From the NCBI GenBank assembly GCA_903831045.1, contig CAIKWG010000038.1:1-42006 (forward strand): DNA of 42,006 bases, given 5' to 3'. Within the stretch, counting starts at the first letter, position 1; the number at the start of each line of letters is the position of its first letter. Shown here one piece after another: positions 1 through 26,515 of this stretch. Origin of the DNA: an uncultured archaeon. Its GTDB lineage: Archaea; Nanobdellota; Nanobdellia; Pacearchaeales; GW2011-AR1. Under the pieces are notes generated by a model. It was not told the DNA's origin. It did no database searches and was given only the letters and a program-made list of their open reading frames with translations. A program made the translations under genes and the position numbers.

Positions 1-2142
1 GAAAAAGAAGAGATAGAAGAGCAGATTCAAAAGAGAAACAAAGAAATAGAAAAAATACAGAAAACAATTCTAACACAAAAGACAACAATTGAAAATTTAG
101 AAGAAAAAATTAAACAAATAAATTCAACTATTCAGCAGTCCACAGGTTTGGAACAAGAGAAGCTGAACAACGAAATTGCAAATCTAAGAGCAGATTTAGC
201 CGGATTAAAGGTTCGTCAGGATAACTATGAAAGAAAAATTAGTTCCATTCAAAAGCAAAAAGTAGATATGCAGAATTCAATAAGAGATACGGAGCTTTCA
301 GTAAAAGAATTGCAGAAAGATTCTCCAACAATCGAAAAGAATCAAAAACAATTGATAAGCAAAAAACAAGAATTAGAAAAATTAGAAGAGAAAAGAAAAA
401 AGTATTATACTACTAAATCTGAATTTAGAGCAATTAAGGACAGAATAAGTGATAAACAAACTATTCTCCAAAGCTATGTTAATGAATCAGAATTTTTAAT
501 AAAACAAATTCAATCTTTGGGTGCAGAACTCTTTGACAAAAAAACCGATGAAAAAAAAGTAGAAGAATTAAAACATTCACTTGCGGATAAAAGACAATTT
601 TTAGAGAATACTAACAAAAGAGAAATTGATTTAGAAAAATTAACCAATAGAAATGAGTTTGAAATCTCAGAACAAAATAAGCTAATAGAGAAAATATCCA
701 AAATGGATGTTTGCCCTGTATGTAAAAGTCATATTACTGATGATCATATTCATCACATTAGAGATGAGGTAATGCCCAAGATACAAGCCTTAAAATTGCA
801 AATTGAAAACTCGGATAAAGAATTAAATGATATTTATTCTAAAAAAAGTTTTCTGAAACAAACTATAGATTCCACAACAGAAGAAATTCAAAAGAGACAA
901 TCAGACCTTTCTAAGCTTTCAGCAATTGAAGATAAAAAAAATCAAATAAAAACTTTACAAGAAAAGATTCAAATTTCCAAGAGTGAGTTAGTGGAATTAG
1001 AAAAGATAAGAGCAGGGTTAGAATCAACCTTTGAAGAAAATTCAAACATTGAAGAAAAGTACGAATCTGCAAGAATAGAAGTTCAGGATATCTCTCTAAG
1101 AAGCAAGGAAAATTTAACTTCTGAAATATCCTTCAAACAAAGAGAATTAGAAAGAATAGAAGCTACAATAAAGCAATTAAATCAAGAGCAGAAAGATGCA
1201 GAAGAAGAATTAGTCTCAATCAAGAAGACTGTTGCTCAAAAAGAAACAATCCTGGATAAGAAAAGAAAAGATGAAGAAAAATTAGCAGAAAGATTTAAGG
1301 TATTAATTTCTGAAAGAGATAATACTCAATTAAAGATAAGAGAAACTGAAGGTCAATCTTCTAGAGACAAAAATGTAGTTTATAACATCGAACAAGGAAT
1401 AAATAATTTTAAGATTGATATTGCTAAGACAAATGCAGAAATAGAAAATTTAGAAACAGAAATACTAGAGTTTTCTAATGTGGAAATAATAAGAACTGCA
1501 AACAAACAAGGATTAACAGAGAGATTAACTAAAACCCAGGAATCTCTAATGAGACTTGGTTCAGTAAACATGAGGGCTCTTGAAACCTACGAATCTATTA
1601 AAGAAGAATATGATCGAGTAAGTGAGAAAGTCGAAATAATTTCAAAAGAAAAAGAAGGGATTATGAAGATTGTCCATGAAATTGATATAAAGAAAAGAAA
1701 AGCATTCCTCTCAACTCTTGAAGCATTGAATCTAATCTTTGGAAGAAACTTTATGCAAATTTCAACAAAGGGGGAAGTTTATCTAGACCTAGAAAATAAA
1801 AAGGATCCTTTTGAAGGAGGAGTTAATATAATTGTTAAGACTGGTCACGGAAAATATTTTGATGTTAAATCTCTTTCTGGAGGAGAGCAAACAATGGTAG
1901 CTCTCTCATTGATATTTGCAATTCAGGAGTTAAAACCCTACTGCTTCTATATACTAGATGAAATTGATGCAGCTCTAGATAAAAGAAATTCTGAGCGTTT
2001 GGCAGGTCTTCTAAAGAAGTATATGCAGAAAGGTCAATATTTGGTAATAACCCATAATGATGAGATTATAACCAATGCAACTAATCTGTTTGGAGTTTCA
2101 ATGCACGAAGGAATAAGTAAGATTGTTAGTCTGAAGGTTTAA
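1..2142 (+). CDS. SMC-like chromosome segregation ATPase, C-terminal part with Rad50-type zinc hook (5' truncated by window edge)
   Basis: Frame +1 is open from base 1, so the ORF start at 148 is an artefact of truncation. Long coiled coil; CPVCKSHITDDH hook at 712-723; SMC-type C-terminal head: GSVNMRALE, KSLSGGEQTMVALSLIFAIQ, FYILDEIDAALD. Confidence 0.9.
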   Translation, partial: EKEEIEEQIQKRNKEIEKIQKTILTQKTTIENLEEKIKQINSTIQQSTGLEQEKLNNEIANLRADLAGLKVRQDNYERKISSIQKQKVDMQNSIRDTELSVKELQKDSPTIEKNQKQLISKKQELEKLEEKRKKYYTTKSEFRAIKDRISDKQTILQSYVNESEFLIKQIQSLGAELFDKKTDEKKVEELKHSLADKRQFLENTNKREIDLEKLTNRNEFEISEQNKLIEKISKMDVCPVCKSHITDDHIHHIRDEVMPKIQALKLQIENSDKELNDIYSKKSFLKQTIDSTTEEIQKRQSDLSKLSAIEDKKNQIKTLQEKIQISKSELVELEKIRAGLESTFEENSNIEEKYESARIEVQDISLRSKENLTSEISFKQRELERIEATIKQLNQEQKDAEEELVSIKKTVAQKETILDKKRKDEEKLAERFKVLISERDNTQLKIRETEGQSSRDKNVVYNIEQGINNFKIDIAKTNAEIENLETEILEFSNVEIIRTANKQGLTERLTKTQESLMRLGSVNMRALETYESIKEEYDRVSEKVEIISKEKEGIMKIVHEIDIKKRKAFLSTLEALNLIFGRNFMQISTKGEVYLDLENKKDPFEGGVNIIVKTGHGKYFDVKSLSGGEQTMVALSLIFAIQELKPYCFYILDEIDAALDKRNSERLAGLLKKYMQKGQYLVITHNDEIITNATNLFGVSMHEGISKIVSLKV

Positions 2143-19755: not shown

Positions 19756-22700
19756 CTACTTATTAACCTCTTCTACTATTTGAGAACTTGCAGTTTTCTT
19801 TTCGCTTTCTTTCTTTGTTAATGGTCCAATAACATTTACAAGTAAGCCCGGAAGACCAGTACCCACAGGAACAGGTTGGTTTAAGATTATGTTCTCAATA
19901 ACACTTGAAAGCTTATCGTGTTTGCCCTTTACAATCGCATTTACGAATTGTTTGATTGGAGTTTCGAATGTTGCTCTTGCTAAAATAGAAGCTTTCTGTG
20001 CAATGATTCCCATTCTTGTTACACCCTTAATTTCTCCAGTATTAGTCATAGCGTCGGCAGCAAGTCTTAAATGTCTTTCATTAATATCAAGACCTTGAGA
20101 ATTAATAACTTCTTTAATTTCATTAATAATTAACTGTCTTGCAACTTCAATTCCGTAGGTAGCACAAACTTCGTGTAAATCGTTTGAAATTGTTTTTTCA
20201 GGATCAACTTCTTTCATCTTTGTGATTTCTTTTAAGTTTGTTCCAAGAGTTATAACAACAAAGTCTTTTCCTCTTTTTACAATTAAAATTTGTTCAACAC
20301 CCTTAATACCAGATATAATTGTTGTCTTTAATTTTTCCTTTAATTTGTAAATCTCCTTGAAATTATAAGCATTAGCATCAAGAACAATCAAACCACTTTG
20401 TTCTTTAACTTCGAATCCAAGTTCATTTAATCTACCAACAACTGTTGGAACTGTTGTATGTGTTCTTCTTAATCCTTCTCTATCTATTTTTATTTCAATC
20501 TTTTTTGAACCAAAATCTAAATTAATTTCTGAAGAAATTTCTTTTAATGTAACTTCTTTAATCTTTTCAGCAAATACTTTTGCGTGGTCTTCATCATTGT
20601 AATCTTTATTCAGATAAATTTCCATCTTCGGAGTTGAAGGTTTCTTTCTAGCATCGAAGATTTCAATAATTCTTGGTAAACCAGTAGTTACCTGCATTTC
20701 TTCTACACCTGCCATATGGAAAGTATTCAAAACCATCTGTGTTGAAGCTTCACCAAAAGATTGTGCGGCCACAAGTCCAATGGCTTCACCGGGGCAAATC
20801 TTTCCTCCAATGTGCATGTTTGTAACTTCAATTCCGTCTCCACCATAAATGAATTGGATAATATTATTTCCACTATCTCTAACTGTTCCATCATATTCCA
20901 CTCTAATATCTTGGAATGCATTTGCTAATCTTCTATACAAGTATCCTGATTTTGGAGTTCTCAAAGCAGTATCCATCATTGAATCTCTTCCTGTTATAGA
21001 CTGGAAGAAAAATTCTTCTGGTTTCAACCCTTTAATAAACGCACTTCTAATAAATCCTCTTGCTGCTGGAGATAAATCTCCTTTTTTGAAAAATGATAAT
21101 GTTCTATCTGTGTATCCAAAGTCAATTCTTCCTCCTGCGAAAGCCTGTTGACCAATACAAGAAGCCATCTGAGCAATATTAACAATATTACCTTTACTTC
21201 CGGAATTCATTAATGCACTAGCCTGATTTGATTCTGGGAAATTTTTCTTAATCTTCTGACCAATCAATGTTCTTGCTTCATTCAAAGCTTTCAAGATATA
21301 AGTTTCTCTTGATCTTTCAGCTGTTTTACCTGGAATTAATTCTAATGTGTCTTCTGCTTCTTTCTTTAATATTTCTTCTACTTTGTGATATGAATCTTTA
21401 ACAATCTTATCACATTCTTTAAGTAATTCTTCATCCAAATCAAAATCTTCAATTGATAAAGATAATCCGTAATCTGTTAAGAAGAATCTTCCTAAATCTG
21501 AAACTTTCTTAATTATTTCAAATGCTTCAGTTCTTCCGAATTTTTTATCAATTAATTTGATAACTTCTCCATCTTCACCACCGAATACGTTCTTATCAAT
21601 AATTCCACTCTTAATCACACCATTATCAATATCTATTGTTTCAGTTTTATAATCAATCTTAGGCAGGAATGTTGAAAATATTTCTAATCCTGTAACATTT
21701 TTCTTAACTTCAGCATCAATTCCAGATCTATATAATAATTGGTTTGCTTCTTCTTTTGTGAATTTCTTTAATCCTAATAAATAATTTCCTGTAACTGCAT
21801 CAATTGCACATCCAATAAGGTTTGTATTATTCTTTGGAGACATTAAATTTTCTTTAACATCTAAAAGTATTTTTGCTTCAGCTCTTGCTTCTTCAGTTTG
21901 AGGAGAGTGAATATTCATTTCATCACCATCAAAATCCGCATTATACGGATTACATGCAGATGGATGCATTCGGAAAGTTCTTCCTGGAAGTACCTTAACG
22001 AAATGTGCCATCAAACTTCCTCTATGAAGTGATGGGTGTCTGTTGAATAAAACAATATCTCCGTTTTGTAAATGTCTTTCTACTTGATAACCTACTTTTA
22101 ATTCTGCAATAATTTCTTCTTTTAATTCGTTTGAAATCTTTTTCTTTCTTCCATCTGGTCTGATAACATAATTTGCTCCAGGATATTCTGCTCCCATCTG
22201 GATTAATTTCTTTAATTTATTCATATTGATGTCGTTTACCATTTCAGCAACAGTTACTACTCTTGCAATTTCAAATGGAATTCCAACTTCGTTAATTTTT
22301 AAACTTGGATCTGGACTAATAACAGTTCTACCGGAATAATTAACTCTTTTACCTGCAATATTCTTTCTAATTCTTCCTTCTTTACCCTTAATTCTTTCAG
22401 TAATTGTTTTCAAAGGTTGACCACTTCTATGTCTTGCTGGAGGAACTCTAGCAACTGCATTATCAAAGAAAGTTGTAACATGATATTGTAATAAATCCCA
22501 AAGATCTTCAATAATAACTTCTGGAGCACCAGCGTTTAAGTTTTCCCAAAGTCTTTGATTCGCTCTAATAATATCAGAAAGTTTATGTGTTAAATCATCT
22601 TCTGATCTTTCACCTGTTTCTAAAATAATAGAAGGTCTTACTGTAACTGGAGGCACAAGTAATGAAGTTAAAATTGCCCATTCTGGTCTTGAAGTTCTAG

Positions 22701-23244
22701 CATTAACTCCAATCTTTTTTAATTCTTCATCAGGAATTCTAACCAGATGTTCTCTAATTTCTGTTGGGAAAATTCTTGTTTTACCCTTATAGAAACTTGT
22801 TGGTTTATCCAATTTCATTCTTTCTTGAGGTTCATGACAATGAGGACATTTTTTTGCATCTTTTGCTCTTTTAGCTCTTTCACTAGGAGTATATTTTTCT
22901 AATTCTTTTTCAGTAATCATTAATTTTCCACAATGTTGACAGAAACATCTTAATCCCATTTCAATCAAAGGAACAAACTTCAGATGAATTACTGACTTAG
23001 CCAGGTCAATGCTACCAGGGTGTCCTAGACATTCTTTTACTCTTCCACCACAAGTTCTACATCTAACACCCGGATCAACAGCTCCGAGTCTTAAATCCAT
23101 TAATCCACCATCTACTGGATAACCATCAATATCATAAAGTTCTGGAGTTACAACTTTTGCAACTGAAATTCTTTTGATTTGGTCTGGACTAAGTAAACTG
23201 AATCTAAGTTCTCCGATTTTTTTTCTTATTGGTTTTTTTGCCAT
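19756..23244 (-). CDS. rpoA: DNA-directed RNA polymerase largest subunit, A' and A'' fused in one ORF
   Basis: NADFDGDEMNIHSPQ, Zn motifs CRTCGGRVKECLGHPG; A'' motifs GLVAAQSFGEASTQMVLNTFHMAG and MTNTGEIKGVTRMG in the same 1162-aa frame. Confidence 0.97.
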   Translation of the reverse strand: MAKKPIRKKIGELRFSLLSPDQIKRISVAKVVTPELYDIDGYPVDGGLMDLRLGAVDPGVRCRTCGGRVKECLGHPGSIDLAKSVIHLKFVPLIEMGLRCFCQHCGKLMITEKELEKYTPSERAKRAKDAKKCPHCHEPQERMKLDKPTSFYKGKTRIFPTEIREHLVRIPDEELKKIGVNARTSRPEWAILTSLLVPPVTVRPSIILETGERSEDDLTHKLSDIIRANQRLWENLNAGAPEVIIEDLWDLLQYHVTTFFDNAVARVPPARHRSGQPLKTITERIKGKEGRIRKNIAGKRVNYSGRTVISPDPSLKINEVGIPFEIARVVTVAEMVNDINMNKLKKLIQMGAEYPGANYVIRPDGRKKKISNELKEEIIAELKVGYQVERHLQNGDIVLFNRHPSLHRGSLMAHFVKVLPGRTFRMHPSACNPYNADFDGDEMNIHSPQTEEARAEAKILLDVKENLMSPKNNTNLIGCAIDAVTGNYLLGLKKFTKEEANQLLYRSGIDAEVKKNVTGLEIFSTFLPKIDYKTETIDIDNGVIKSGIIDKNVFGGEDGEVIKLIDKKFGRTEAFEIIKKVSDLGRFFLTDYGLSLSIEDFDLDEELLKECDKIVKDSYHKVEEILKKEAEDTLELIPGKTAERSRETYILKALNEARTLIGQKIKKNFPESNQASALMNSGSKGNIVNIAQMASCIGQQAFAGGRIDFGYTDRTLSFFKKGDLSPAARGFIRSAFIKGLKPEEFFFQSITGRDSMMDTALRTPKSGYLYRRLANAFQDIRVEYDGTVRDSGNNIIQFIYGGDGIEVTNMHIGGKICPGEAIGLVAAQSFGEASTQMVLNTFHMAGVEEMQVTTGLPRIIEIFDARKKPSTPKMEIYLNKDYNDEDHAKVFAEKIKEVTLKEISSEINLDFGSKKIEIKIDREGLRRTHTTVPTVVGRLNELGFEVKEQSGLIVLDANAYNFKEIYKLKEKLKTTIISGIKGVEQILIVKRGKDFVVITLGTNLKEITKMKEVDPEKTISNDLHEVCATYGIEVARQLIINEIKEVINSQGLDINERHLRLAADAMTNTGEIKGVTRMGIIAQKASILARATFETPIKQFVNAIVKGKHDKLSSVIENIILNQPVPVGTGLPGLLVNVIGPLTKKESEKKTASSQIVEEVNK

Positions 23245-23245
23245 T

Positions 23246-26200
23246 TTATTCGTATTTATTCTTTAAAGTAAATTGAGTATTCATATGTAAGCCTTGCAAT
23301 TCCTCAATTAATAATTTAAATGCATATGAAACTTCAACAGGTTCTGTTTCTTCTGAATTACACATTGGACAGATAATCTTATTTCTAATTGTATCTTCAA
23401 GTGCGATTGTTCCACATTTTGAACAAATGTATAATGTTACTTTATCTGAATCATATCTTTCTTTTAATAATAATGAAGCTCCGTGAGCAACAAGTGCTTG
23501 CTGTTCCATTTCTCCAAGTCTTAATGCTCCTCCTCTTGCTCTTCCTTCGATTGGTTGTCTTGTTAATAATGCAACTTTACCTGAAGCTCTTCCGTGCATT
23601 CTATTTCCTACCATATATTTCAACTTTAGATAATATAAACTTCCAACGAAAATCTTTGCAGGAATCTTTTTACCAGTGATTGCGTTGTACATTGTTTCTT
23701 TTCCATCAAATCTAAATCCATATTCTTCTAATTGATCTTCAAGACTATCTTTACTTTCATTATTGAATGGAGTTCCATCAACAACGCTTCCTCTAATTGC
23801 GGCAGCTTTTCCACCAATCAATTCTAATAAATATCCTACAGTCATACGACTAAGTAACCCGTGTGGATTGAAAATTACATCTGGTTTCATACCAGAAATA
23901 GAAAATGGAACATCCTGTTCTGGAATAATTGCTCCAACAACTCCTTTCTGTCCGTGTGGATTTGCATATTTATCCCCTAGTTCTGGGATTCTTTGATCTC
24001 TTGTTTTAACCTGAACAATTTTATTTCCTTCATCATCAATTGTAACAAAAACAGCCTCGGCAATTCCCTTTTCTTCTTGTCTCAGTGTAACACTTGATTC
24101 TTTCTTTGTTCTAACTGAAATTTCTCTTGCTTCGGATAAGAATTTAGGTGGAGAAAGTTTACCAATTACAACATCTCCTTCATTAATATCAGCTTCTGGA
24201 TAAATAATTCCATCATCTTCTAATAGTCTATAGGCTTCTTCTGTTCTATATCCTGAAGTATCTTTTTCTGGAACAACAATTTCATCTTTTAATCCCCCAG
24301 CATAGTTCATTTCAACTGCAGAATATGGTCTGAAATAGAAACTTCTTCCAACACCTCTATCTAAACTTCCTTTATTCAATACAATAGCATCTTCCATATT
24401 ATAACCTTCATAGGTCATAATTGCAACAGTCAGATTTTGACCAGCAGGATAGGTATTAAGAGTATCATAAACAAAACTTCTTACTAATGGTTTTTGAGGA
24501 TATTGTAAAATAGAAACATCTGTATCTAATCTACATAAATAATCTGCAGCATAAAGTCCCAATGACTGTTTCTGTGTTTTTCCTCCCTTAAGAAGTCTTG
24601 AACTTGGATCGTGATTTGCGTATGAAACAATTGCAATTGAAAGTCCTAGAGAACCAATTGGGTCAATTTCTAAATGAGTATGTTCAGCATCTATTTCTTC
24701 TTCTTTTAGTGCAATATAAGCTTCTTCTTCTTCCGCAGCGTCTAAATATTCAACAATTCCTTTGTTTACAAGGTCAATCCACTTTAAACTTCCTTGTTCT
24801 AATTGTACCATGTGTTCATTTTTTAACTTTGAAGAACCATTGTCTACAACAATAAGAGGTCTTAGTGTTCTACCGGGTTCAGTATAAATAGAAACTGTAC
24901 TTAATCCATCATCTTTTCTTACGTTCATTTGAACTGGGAATTGTCCAGCTCTTCTTTTTTCTCTTATATTTTTTACAAATTTACTAGCATCCTTAACATT
25001 TCCAACATATCCTCCGTTGAAGAAAACTTCCATTCCTTCTGTTCCTTCCTTTTCCAGTCCAATTGATTCTAATTCTTTAATGAATTTATCCAAATCTAAT
25101 TCAACTCTTGTAGAAACTTTAGCTAATACAGCAAGGTTTTTTCTCAGACCAATTTCAGTTCCTTCTGGAGTTTCAATAGGACAGAATCTTCCATAATGAG
25201 TTGGATGTAATGTTCTTGCAGCAAAATTTTCTTGTTCACTTTCAAGCATACTAGAAACTCTTTGTAATTGAGAAATCATTGCTAGATAGTTTGTCTTATC
25301 CATATTCTGAGTAACTCCGCTTCTTTCTCCGGTCCAAGAACCAGTAGCAATAGCAGATTCAACTCTGTGTGAGAATAATGTTGATTTAGCTAAAATTTTG
25401 ATAGATAAATATTTTTTTCTCTTTGAAGATTTTTGTAATGAATATTGAATATCTCTAATTAAAATTCCTAGGTTTACTCTGAATAGAGTAGCAAGCAAAT
25501 CTCCAGAAAGTCTAACTCTCTTATTTGCATAATGATCTTTATCTGTTCTTAAATCTGGATTTTCTTTTGCAGTTAAATACTGCTTAATTAGTTTGCATAA
25601 TGTTATTGCTTTTTTTGTTCTATCTTCTTTAGCTTGACCAATGTGAGGAAATAAATATGAATCAATTCTTTGTTTTACTCTATCCATAATTTCTTTTTTT
25701 GTTCCTTGAAGATTTGTTTTTTCAGCAATATACATCATTGCATCTTCTTTTGTTGCTAAATCTACAAATTCATATAGGTTTACAATAACACTGTCTGTTT
25801 CTTTACCAATATATTTAGCAATATCCGATTCTTTAACAAGACCAAGTGCTTTTAGTATTACCACAGCTGGAACATCTTTGAATCTACTAAATGAAACATT
25901 GAAAATTCCTTCTTTGCTTTCACTGATAGTCATTGGAATTCTATAGGTTCCCTTAAGTGAGAATAATTTTAAAGTCAATTCTTTCTTTTTATTTTCTTCA
26001 ATGAATGGTTGGTTTTCTGCAAGGTCTTCAGCCATTACCATAACTCTTTCATTTCCTTTAACAATGAAGTATCCACCTGTATCCAATGGATCATTATATC
26101 TTTGAACAAGTTGTTCTTTTGTTAATCCAGCAGTGTTACAAGCTTTACTCTTAACCATAACTGGAATTCTTCCAATTTCAACAACTTCAGAATCTACATT

Positions 26201-26515
26201 TCCATCTTTCTTAATTGTTAATTCTAATTTAACTGGAGCTGAATAGGTTAAATTTCTTAATCTAGCTTCATATGGTGTAATTAATGCAGAACTTCCATCT
26301 GCTTCAGTAATGTCTGGTCTACCAACTTCAATTTTTCCTAATTTTATTTCAAATTCCTCATTTTCAATTGTTCCGTTGATTTCATCAACAATTTCTTGCA
26401 TTCTATGCTCGATAAACTCATTAAAAGAAATAATATTTGATTCAACAATAGAATGATCTTCTAGATATCTTTTTACAATAAGGTGTTTGTTTGATTGAAT
26501 CATTTTAGACAACAA
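23246..26515 (-). CDS. rpoB: DNA-directed RNA polymerase subunit B (unsplit)
   Basis: FCPIETPEGTEIGLRKNLA, GQKGVVGAIIPEQDVPF, MVGNRMHGRASG, C-terminal Zn finger CSKCG...CPMC. Confidence 0.97.
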   Translation of the reverse strand: MLSKMIQSNKHLIVKRYLEDHSIVESNIISFNEFIEHRMQEIVDEINGTIENEEFEIKLGKIEVGRPDITEADGSSALITPYEARLRNLTYSAPVKLELTIKKDGNVDSEVVEIGRIPVMVKSKACNTAGLTKEQLVQRYNDPLDTGGYFIVKGNERVMVMAEDLAENQPFIEENKKKELTLKLFSLKGTYRIPMTISESKEGIFNVSFSRFKDVPAVVILKALGLVKESDIAKYIGKETDSVIVNLYEFVDLATKEDAMMYIAEKTNLQGTKKEIMDRVKQRIDSYLFPHIGQAKEDRTKKAITLCKLIKQYLTAKENPDLRTDKDHYANKRVRLSGDLLATLFRVNLGILIRDIQYSLQKSSKRKKYLSIKILAKSTLFSHRVESAIATGSWTGERSGVTQNMDKTNYLAMISQLQRVSSMLESEQENFAARTLHPTHYGRFCPIETPEGTEIGLRKNLAVLAKVSTRVELDLDKFIKELESIGLEKEGTEGMEVFFNGGYVGNVKDASKFVKNIREKRRAGQFPVQMNVRKDDGLSTVSIYTEPGRTLRPLIVVDNGSSKLKNEHMVQLEQGSLKWIDLVNKGIVEYLDAAEEEEAYIALKEEEIDAEHTHLEIDPIGSLGLSIAIVSYANHDPSSRLLKGGKTQKQSLGLYAADYLCRLDTDVSILQYPQKPLVRSFVYDTLNTYPAGQNLTVAIMTYEGYNMEDAIVLNKGSLDRGVGRSFYFRPYSAVEMNYAGGLKDEIVVPEKDTSGYRTEEAYRLLEDDGIIYPEADINEGDVVIGKLSPPKFLSEAREISVRTKKESSVTLRQEEKGIAEAVFVTIDDEGNKIVQVKTRDQRIPELGDKYANPHGQKGVVGAIIPEQDVPFSISGMKPDVIFNPHGLLSRMTVGYLLELIGGKAAAIRGSVVDGTPFNNESKDSLEDQLEEYGFRFDGKETMYNAITGKKIPAKIFVGSLYYLKLKYMVGNRMHGRASGKVALLTRQPIEGRARGGALRLGEMEQQALVAHGASLLLKERYDSDKVTLYICSKCGTIALEDTIRNKIICPMCNSEETEPVEVSYAFKLLIEELQGLHMNTQFTLKNKYE

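Follow-up and report, generated by a model that had tools for sequence, protein, structure and literature searches.

Replacement of the hinge by a Rad50-type zinc hook in an archaeal SMC protein

Introduction

What kind of ATPase has an SMC-type head but a zinc hook of the Rad50 type, and which machine does it belong to? The question is raised by the open reading frame at the start of the 42,006-nucleotide stretch of archaeal DNA analysed here (the window), which runs from base 1 of contig C38 (G000:C38) of a Pacearchaeales genome that is 83% complete. SMC proteins are ring-shaped motors that organise chromosomes, and the hinge is the domain by which they are normally joined. Engineered chimeras have so far supplied the arguments on whether the hinge takes an active part in the motor, binding DNA and opening as a gate, or is a mere clasp. 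The original prediction, made from the letters of the window, was of an SMC-type head carrying a Rad50-type zinc hook instead of the hinge; every test that we ran supports it, and in our view the protein very probably belongs to an archaeal Smc-ScpA condensin, as an SMC subunit in which that hook has replaced the hinge.

Results

The frame encodes 713 residues and begins at the contig edge; as it is already open at base 1 of C38, the smc gene is truncated (Table 1). SMC_N is the sole Pfam match in this fragment at the default limit, and the NCBIfam models rank SMC (TIGR02169, 252 bits over profile positions 701-1164) above ASRP (92 bits) and Rad50 (79 bits). The SMC signatures that had been read in the C-terminal head were all found. 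CPVC sits at 712-723, where the hook had been placed, but the 12-residue CPVCKSHITDDH extends beyond this, to 747. The observation that no Mre11 gene lies nearby downstream agrees with the lack of any Mre11 domain in the window proteins scanned, a set that leaves out some small open reading frames. Elsewhere in the window, RNA polymerase subunit A appears to be encoded by a single unsplit gene with Rpb1 domains 1-5 (19756-23244, minus strand), which adjoins that of subunit B (23246-26515).

Table 1. Features of the truncated smc gene in the window.
Feature	Position	Strand	Evidence
C-terminal 713 aa of the hook-bearing SMC (distal N-arm, hook, C-arm, C-terminal ATPase head)	1..2142	+	PF02463 4e-22; TIGR02169 1e-74
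N-terminal coiled-coil arm, distal part	1..693	+	Alignment, SMC profile match; helix in model of a relative
Apex ISKMDVCPVCKSHITDDHIHHIRDEV, Rad50-type zinc hook between two arm helices	694..771	+	PF04423 match, profile against Rad50 hooks, AlphaFold2 apex model, 1L8D match
CPVC; full 12-residue CPVCKSHITDDH	712..723; 712..747	+	Motif positions
C-terminal coiled-coil arm	772..1557	+	SMC profiles, model of relative; hook-to-head stretch without globular insertion
SMC-specific GSVNMRALE motif, arm/head neck	1558..1584	+	Motif position; conserved in relatives
ABC signature LSGGEQTMVALSLIFAIQ	1873..1926	+	Motif position
Walker B / D-loop FYILDEIDAALD	1945..1980	+	Motif position

A PF02463 search of the order recovered the complementary SMC N-terminal head in the same genome, where it is cut short by the end of contig C34 (G000:C34:16880-17284). 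This piece comprises 237 residues from MTYIKRLVIHGFKSF (L101:7875-8585), contains GPNGSGKS and matches TIGR02169 profile positions 1-234; a ribonuclease HII-like gene, recognised by eye, lies upstream of it (L101:7085-7756). The two contigs have no sequence overlap, and by alignment on relatives about three codons are absent between them, where the sequence is A-rich. Insertion of three residues gives a joined protein of 953 residues, like full-length relatives; its N-terminal arm of 302 residues is the modal value of 84 hook-bearing SMCs, and its C-terminal arm of 385 is one residue off the mode. We infer that the C34 and C38 pieces are two parts of one smc gene, and together they supply a bipartite SMC head, with Walker A (GxxGSGKS) at the N-terminus and LSGGE and Walker B at the C-terminus. 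The globular hinge, reported missing between hook and head, is absent also from the recovered N-terminal half and from every full-length relative. A hinge encoded upstream of base 1, which the original prediction had named as evidence against itself, did not appear; since nothing else lies at the junction in any relative, a hidden hinge is ruled out as far as the draft genome allows.

The named relatives come from Candidatus Pacearchaeota and Nanoarchaeota genomes, and those of the same family have about 950-960 residues, with Walker A near residue 32, the hook near 478 and the signature near 864. Every one of the 81 distinct SMCs recovered from the order with 900 residues or more has CPxC at its apex, which makes the hook more than a chance occurrence. 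The spacing between N-arm anchor and first cysteine is 301-305 residues in 76 of the 84 hook-bearing SMCs; that between second cysteine and signature is 383-385 in 76/84 and exactly 384 in 65. When 15 SMCs of the class that have a hinge are made into a profile, it aligns to the window protein at 709 bits in two blocks (positions 2-462 and 687-1124) and gives a Rad50 of the order -6 bits; because it fits both flanks and skips the hinge part, we conclude that the hook replaces the hinge together with some adjoining coil. The NCBIfam equivalog models score a full-length relative below their cut-offs (522.9 against 729.4 bits for TIGR02169, 505.5 against 567.35 for TIGR02168), a shortfall in line with the loss of some 230 profile positions, and an SMC model is still the best-scoring of all models. 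The protein thus has an SMC-family head, arms in SMC register and a CPxC apex in the hinge's place. Some f1 members (L103, L124, L133, L142, L138, L143-L145) have extra C-terminal tails beyond the SMC head, with totals of 988-1034 residues against 952.

The likeness of this apex to the Rad50 zinc hook was seen by several routes. PF04423 is the best Pfam match on the window's 82-residue apex, at 23.3 bits just below the cut-off of 24.3 (17.2 bits on the whole 713-residue fragment). Compared as profiles, the order's SMC hooks and its Rad50 hooks reach an hhalign score of 115.8, against 17-53 for control pairings of arm segments, and share a gapless 43-column similarity around the motif (score 66.8) that takes in I-6, S-5, V/I+7, H+11, I+15 and I+23. 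The best PDB sequence for a 12-sequence apex profile is 1L8D, the Pyrococcus furiosus Rad50 hook, a weak match at E 0.006. An AlphaFold2 single-chain model of the apex (pLDDT 93.6) consists of two helices and a 13-residue loop with the cysteines, and its best fold matches are both chains of 1L8D (E 0.005 and 0.008). Coiled coils match each other easily, and these E-values alone would be thin; we accept a Rad50-type hook because four methods are concordant. An AlphaFold model of a full-length relative, used for arms and apex only given its poor heads (pLDDT below 50 in parts, pTM 0.30), likewise fits a picture in which neither the relatives nor the models have a globular domain at the apex.

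A hook of this kind could also have arisen convergently from a coiled-coil loop of the SMC itself rather than by transfer from Rad50. The hook is short, no donor clade can be identified, and the f1 SMC hooks CPLCKSKITEEH differ from the Rad50 hooks of the same family, CPTCLQNVDxxY; against this, the 43-column similarity runs without a gap, the SMC hooks of f2 and f4 have the Q typical of Rad50 hooks, and it is 1L8D that the apex matches best. We regard convergence as rather unlikely, while granting it some weight.

The clear similarity of the CPxC apex to Rad50 hooks invites a further reading, in which the protein is a divergent or second Rad50 that kept its hook while its head drifted towards SMC and that works with Mre11 in DNA-end repair. 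A head tree of SMCs of the order, hinge SMCs of the class, Pyrococcus and Bacillus Smc, and Rad50s places the SMCs of the order in one clade (99/98) beside the class hinge SMCs and Pyrococcus/Bacillus Smc, and splits off the Rad50s of the same order at 100/100; a position inside Rad50 beside mre11, the other outcome that the original prediction had held against itself, did not occur. The source genome has its own mre11 (388 residues) and rad50 (682 residues, hook CPTCLQNVDAVYR) side by side on contig C3. Across the order, Rad50 matches are found in 107 and Mre11 matches in 106 of 109 genomes, the separate Rad50s being about 680-690 residues long and as a rule adjoining Mre11, and no hinge SMC remains that could do the SMC job. 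Head tree, profile scores (709 against -6 bits) and the separate mre11-rad50 operon lead us to reject Rad50 identity, which is the most improbable reading that we considered.

Membership of the archaea-specific SMC-related proteins (ASRPs, such as ClsN/coalescin and Sph), zinc-hook proteins whose role is not that of a condensin, had been suggested as well. ASRPs do combine a zinc hook with SMC-like heads (PMC9389158), and their model matches, weakly: a full-length relative scores 111 bits on NF045487, where the cut-off is 300, against 523 for the SMC model. None of 38 close-relative genomes holds a protein over the ASRP cut-off, which two control genomes pass, and the heads group with SMCs of the same class in a tree of SMCs and Rad50s only. 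The suggestion is not supported; on the model score we reject membership, and rate the ASRP reading very unlikely. Haloarchaeal plasmids searched for true ASRPs yielded an SMC (L206) and Rad50-like ATPases (L207-L209), two of which sit beside metallophosphoesterase genes, and no confirmed ASRP.

Searches of 109 and of 200 genomes of the order yielded no PF06470 hinge above the Pfam cut-off, whereas 10 of the 14 controls were positive. The two weak matches in the order lie in open frames of 316-321 residues with neither CPxC nor an SGG motif, and a second, hinge-bearing SMC was sought and rejected, with none over the cut-off among the 200 genomes. In a sample of the class, 167 of 234 genomes have a hinge over the cut-off. 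A renewed search of 17 hinge-negative genomes outside the order gave no SMC match in any of the eight from family f13 of the class (G145, G154, G161, G168, G175, G180, G186 and G191), and fragments, weak matches or none in the rest. SMC_N matches occur in 108 of 109 genomes of the order. The hinge has thus been neither duplicated nor moved; none came to light in the order.

In keeping with this, the hook-bearing protein is the only SMC found in the source genome, and our check for other SMC and Rad50 genes returned the mre11-rad50 operon and ScpA encoded elsewhere, with no canonical hinge SMC. The kleisin ScpA lies on contig C41 (PF02616, 45.8 bits) and a ScpB homologue on C45, and homologues of both are retained in most genomes of the order. 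Other archaeal ScpAs that have been tested do not bind ScpB (PMC7055376), and for that reason Smc-ScpA is the safer claim as to partners.

Hook and hinge are both missing from SMCs of about 800 residues in families f4, f6 and f7. These proteins (L034, L036-L040, L043 and L045; 781-809 residues) are some 160 residues shorter in total, or about 80 per arm. The tree calculated from heads and proximal arms supports the order at 100/99. It rejects one common origin for the hook-less forms (AU p 0.003) and likewise one for the hook forms (AU p 0.012), so that the order of hook gain and loss is not fully settled. The apices of f4 and f6 are alike (hhalign 96%) and that of f7 is different. The simplest account is that the hinge was lost at the base of the order, and that the hook was gained early and lost repeatedly, though other orders of events are possible.

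Loss of the hook in at least two lineages could mean relaxed demands, and hence that the protein is an SMC-derived tether, for instance in the handling of DNA ends or plasmids, in small-genome cells that no longer need condensin. That SMC_N is near-universal in the order, that the heads are strongly conserved and the arm lengths almost invariant, that ScpA and ScpB homologues persist in most genomes, and that a hook chimera supports growth of Bacillus subtilis (PMC5344682) all speak against such a tether, which we consider improbable.

Discussion

The condensin reading suggests a model for the activity of the hook-bearing SMC. We propose that two chains, each contributing two cysteines, would share one zinc ion and so join their arms at the apex, as in Rad50. 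The zinc-joined apex would close the Smc ring, with the kleisin ScpA bridging the ATP-driven heads, and the resulting Smc-ScpA ring would organise and segregate the chromosome. Functions specific to the hinge, namely the doughnut-shaped dimer, DNA binding at the hinge and hinge opening, would then be absent or be performed otherwise. In this model both the zinc-mediated dimerisation and the chromosome function are inferred.

The precedent closest to this arrangement comes from the laboratory. When the P. furiosus Rad50 hook stands in for the hinge of B. subtilis Smc, the cells grow normally on rich medium, with a similar dependence on arm length, and Buermann et al. (2017) claim that the arm is constrained more than the fold of the apex (PMC5344682); the near-invariant arm lengths of the order fit this claim. 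In those constructs the hinge was carried as residues 487-684 (PMC5344682), and the segment replaced by the hook in the order is close to the segment exchanged there. In the reverse swap, bacterial hinges are functional in yeast Rad50 (PMC6969161). The engineered Smc(Zn-hook) has an identical architecture, in that a Rad50 zinc hook connects the arms of an Smc, but is a bacterial laboratory construct, whereas the pacearchaeal form occurs in nature, has become fixed across most of an archaeal order and shows further turnover of the apex. In a search of open-licence papers, none described an SMC with a hook from Pacearchaeota. On our best reading, the Smc(Zn-hook) engineered in B. subtilis, a swap known before only from the laboratory, has its natural equivalent in this protein.

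Comparison with other members of the superfamily places the protein among the SMCs. With canonical Smc (TIGR02169/TIGR02168, for example Pyrococcus Smc with ScpA) it has in common the head sequence and phylogeny, the arm register, the Walker A, signature and Walker B motifs, and a ScpA in the genome; it differs in having a zinc hook instead of the PF06470 hinge and its adjoining coil, about 225 profile positions. The zinc hook at the arm apex is common to Rad50/SbcC, which acts with Mre11, but here the head is that of an SMC, a separate rad50-mre11 operon exists, and the arms are longer than those of the Rad50 of the same genome. The ASRPs ClsN and Sph are the described hook-bearing SMC relatives in archaea (PMC9389158); in contrast to them, the present protein falls below the ASRP cut-off, has heads that go with canonical SMC and about 950 residues against a model of 593 positions, and replaces SMC rather than accompanies it. 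Hinge loss is shared with a marine actinobacterial SMC, reported without CXXC (Sussfeld et al., 2025, PMC12153180), but that protein is bacterial and compares rather with the hook-less pacearchaeal forms of 800 residues.

Taken across the order, we lean towards a scenario in which all its members run a hinge-less SMC. A hook derived from Rad50 would have taken the place of the hinge early, and at least two lineages would then have lost the hook and about 80 residues per arm, leaving 800-residue SMCs without a recognised dimerisation domain. Nature would thus have made the change from hinge to hook across an order and in more than one step. If this is true, the SMC apex is an evolutionarily exchangeable clasp, and DNA binding and opening at the hinge lie outside the core SMC mechanism. 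The order and its class offer a natural set, with hinge, with hook and with neither, for comparing arm length, dimerisation and loop extrusion.

Automatic annotation, with its SMC equivalog cut-offs and PF06470, overlooks the hook-bearing group. Genome G095 has, besides L122, a second SMC (L061/L121, an 879-residue frame with a run of N before the signature) that may be contamination. Several genomes, both of the order and of the class, have probable inteins in the SMC P-loop (GPNGSGK(S)/C...HN/SN), with frames of about 1490-1690 residues (L033, L021, L025, L027, L146/L058 and L192); the hinge SMCs L086 and L090 have them too.
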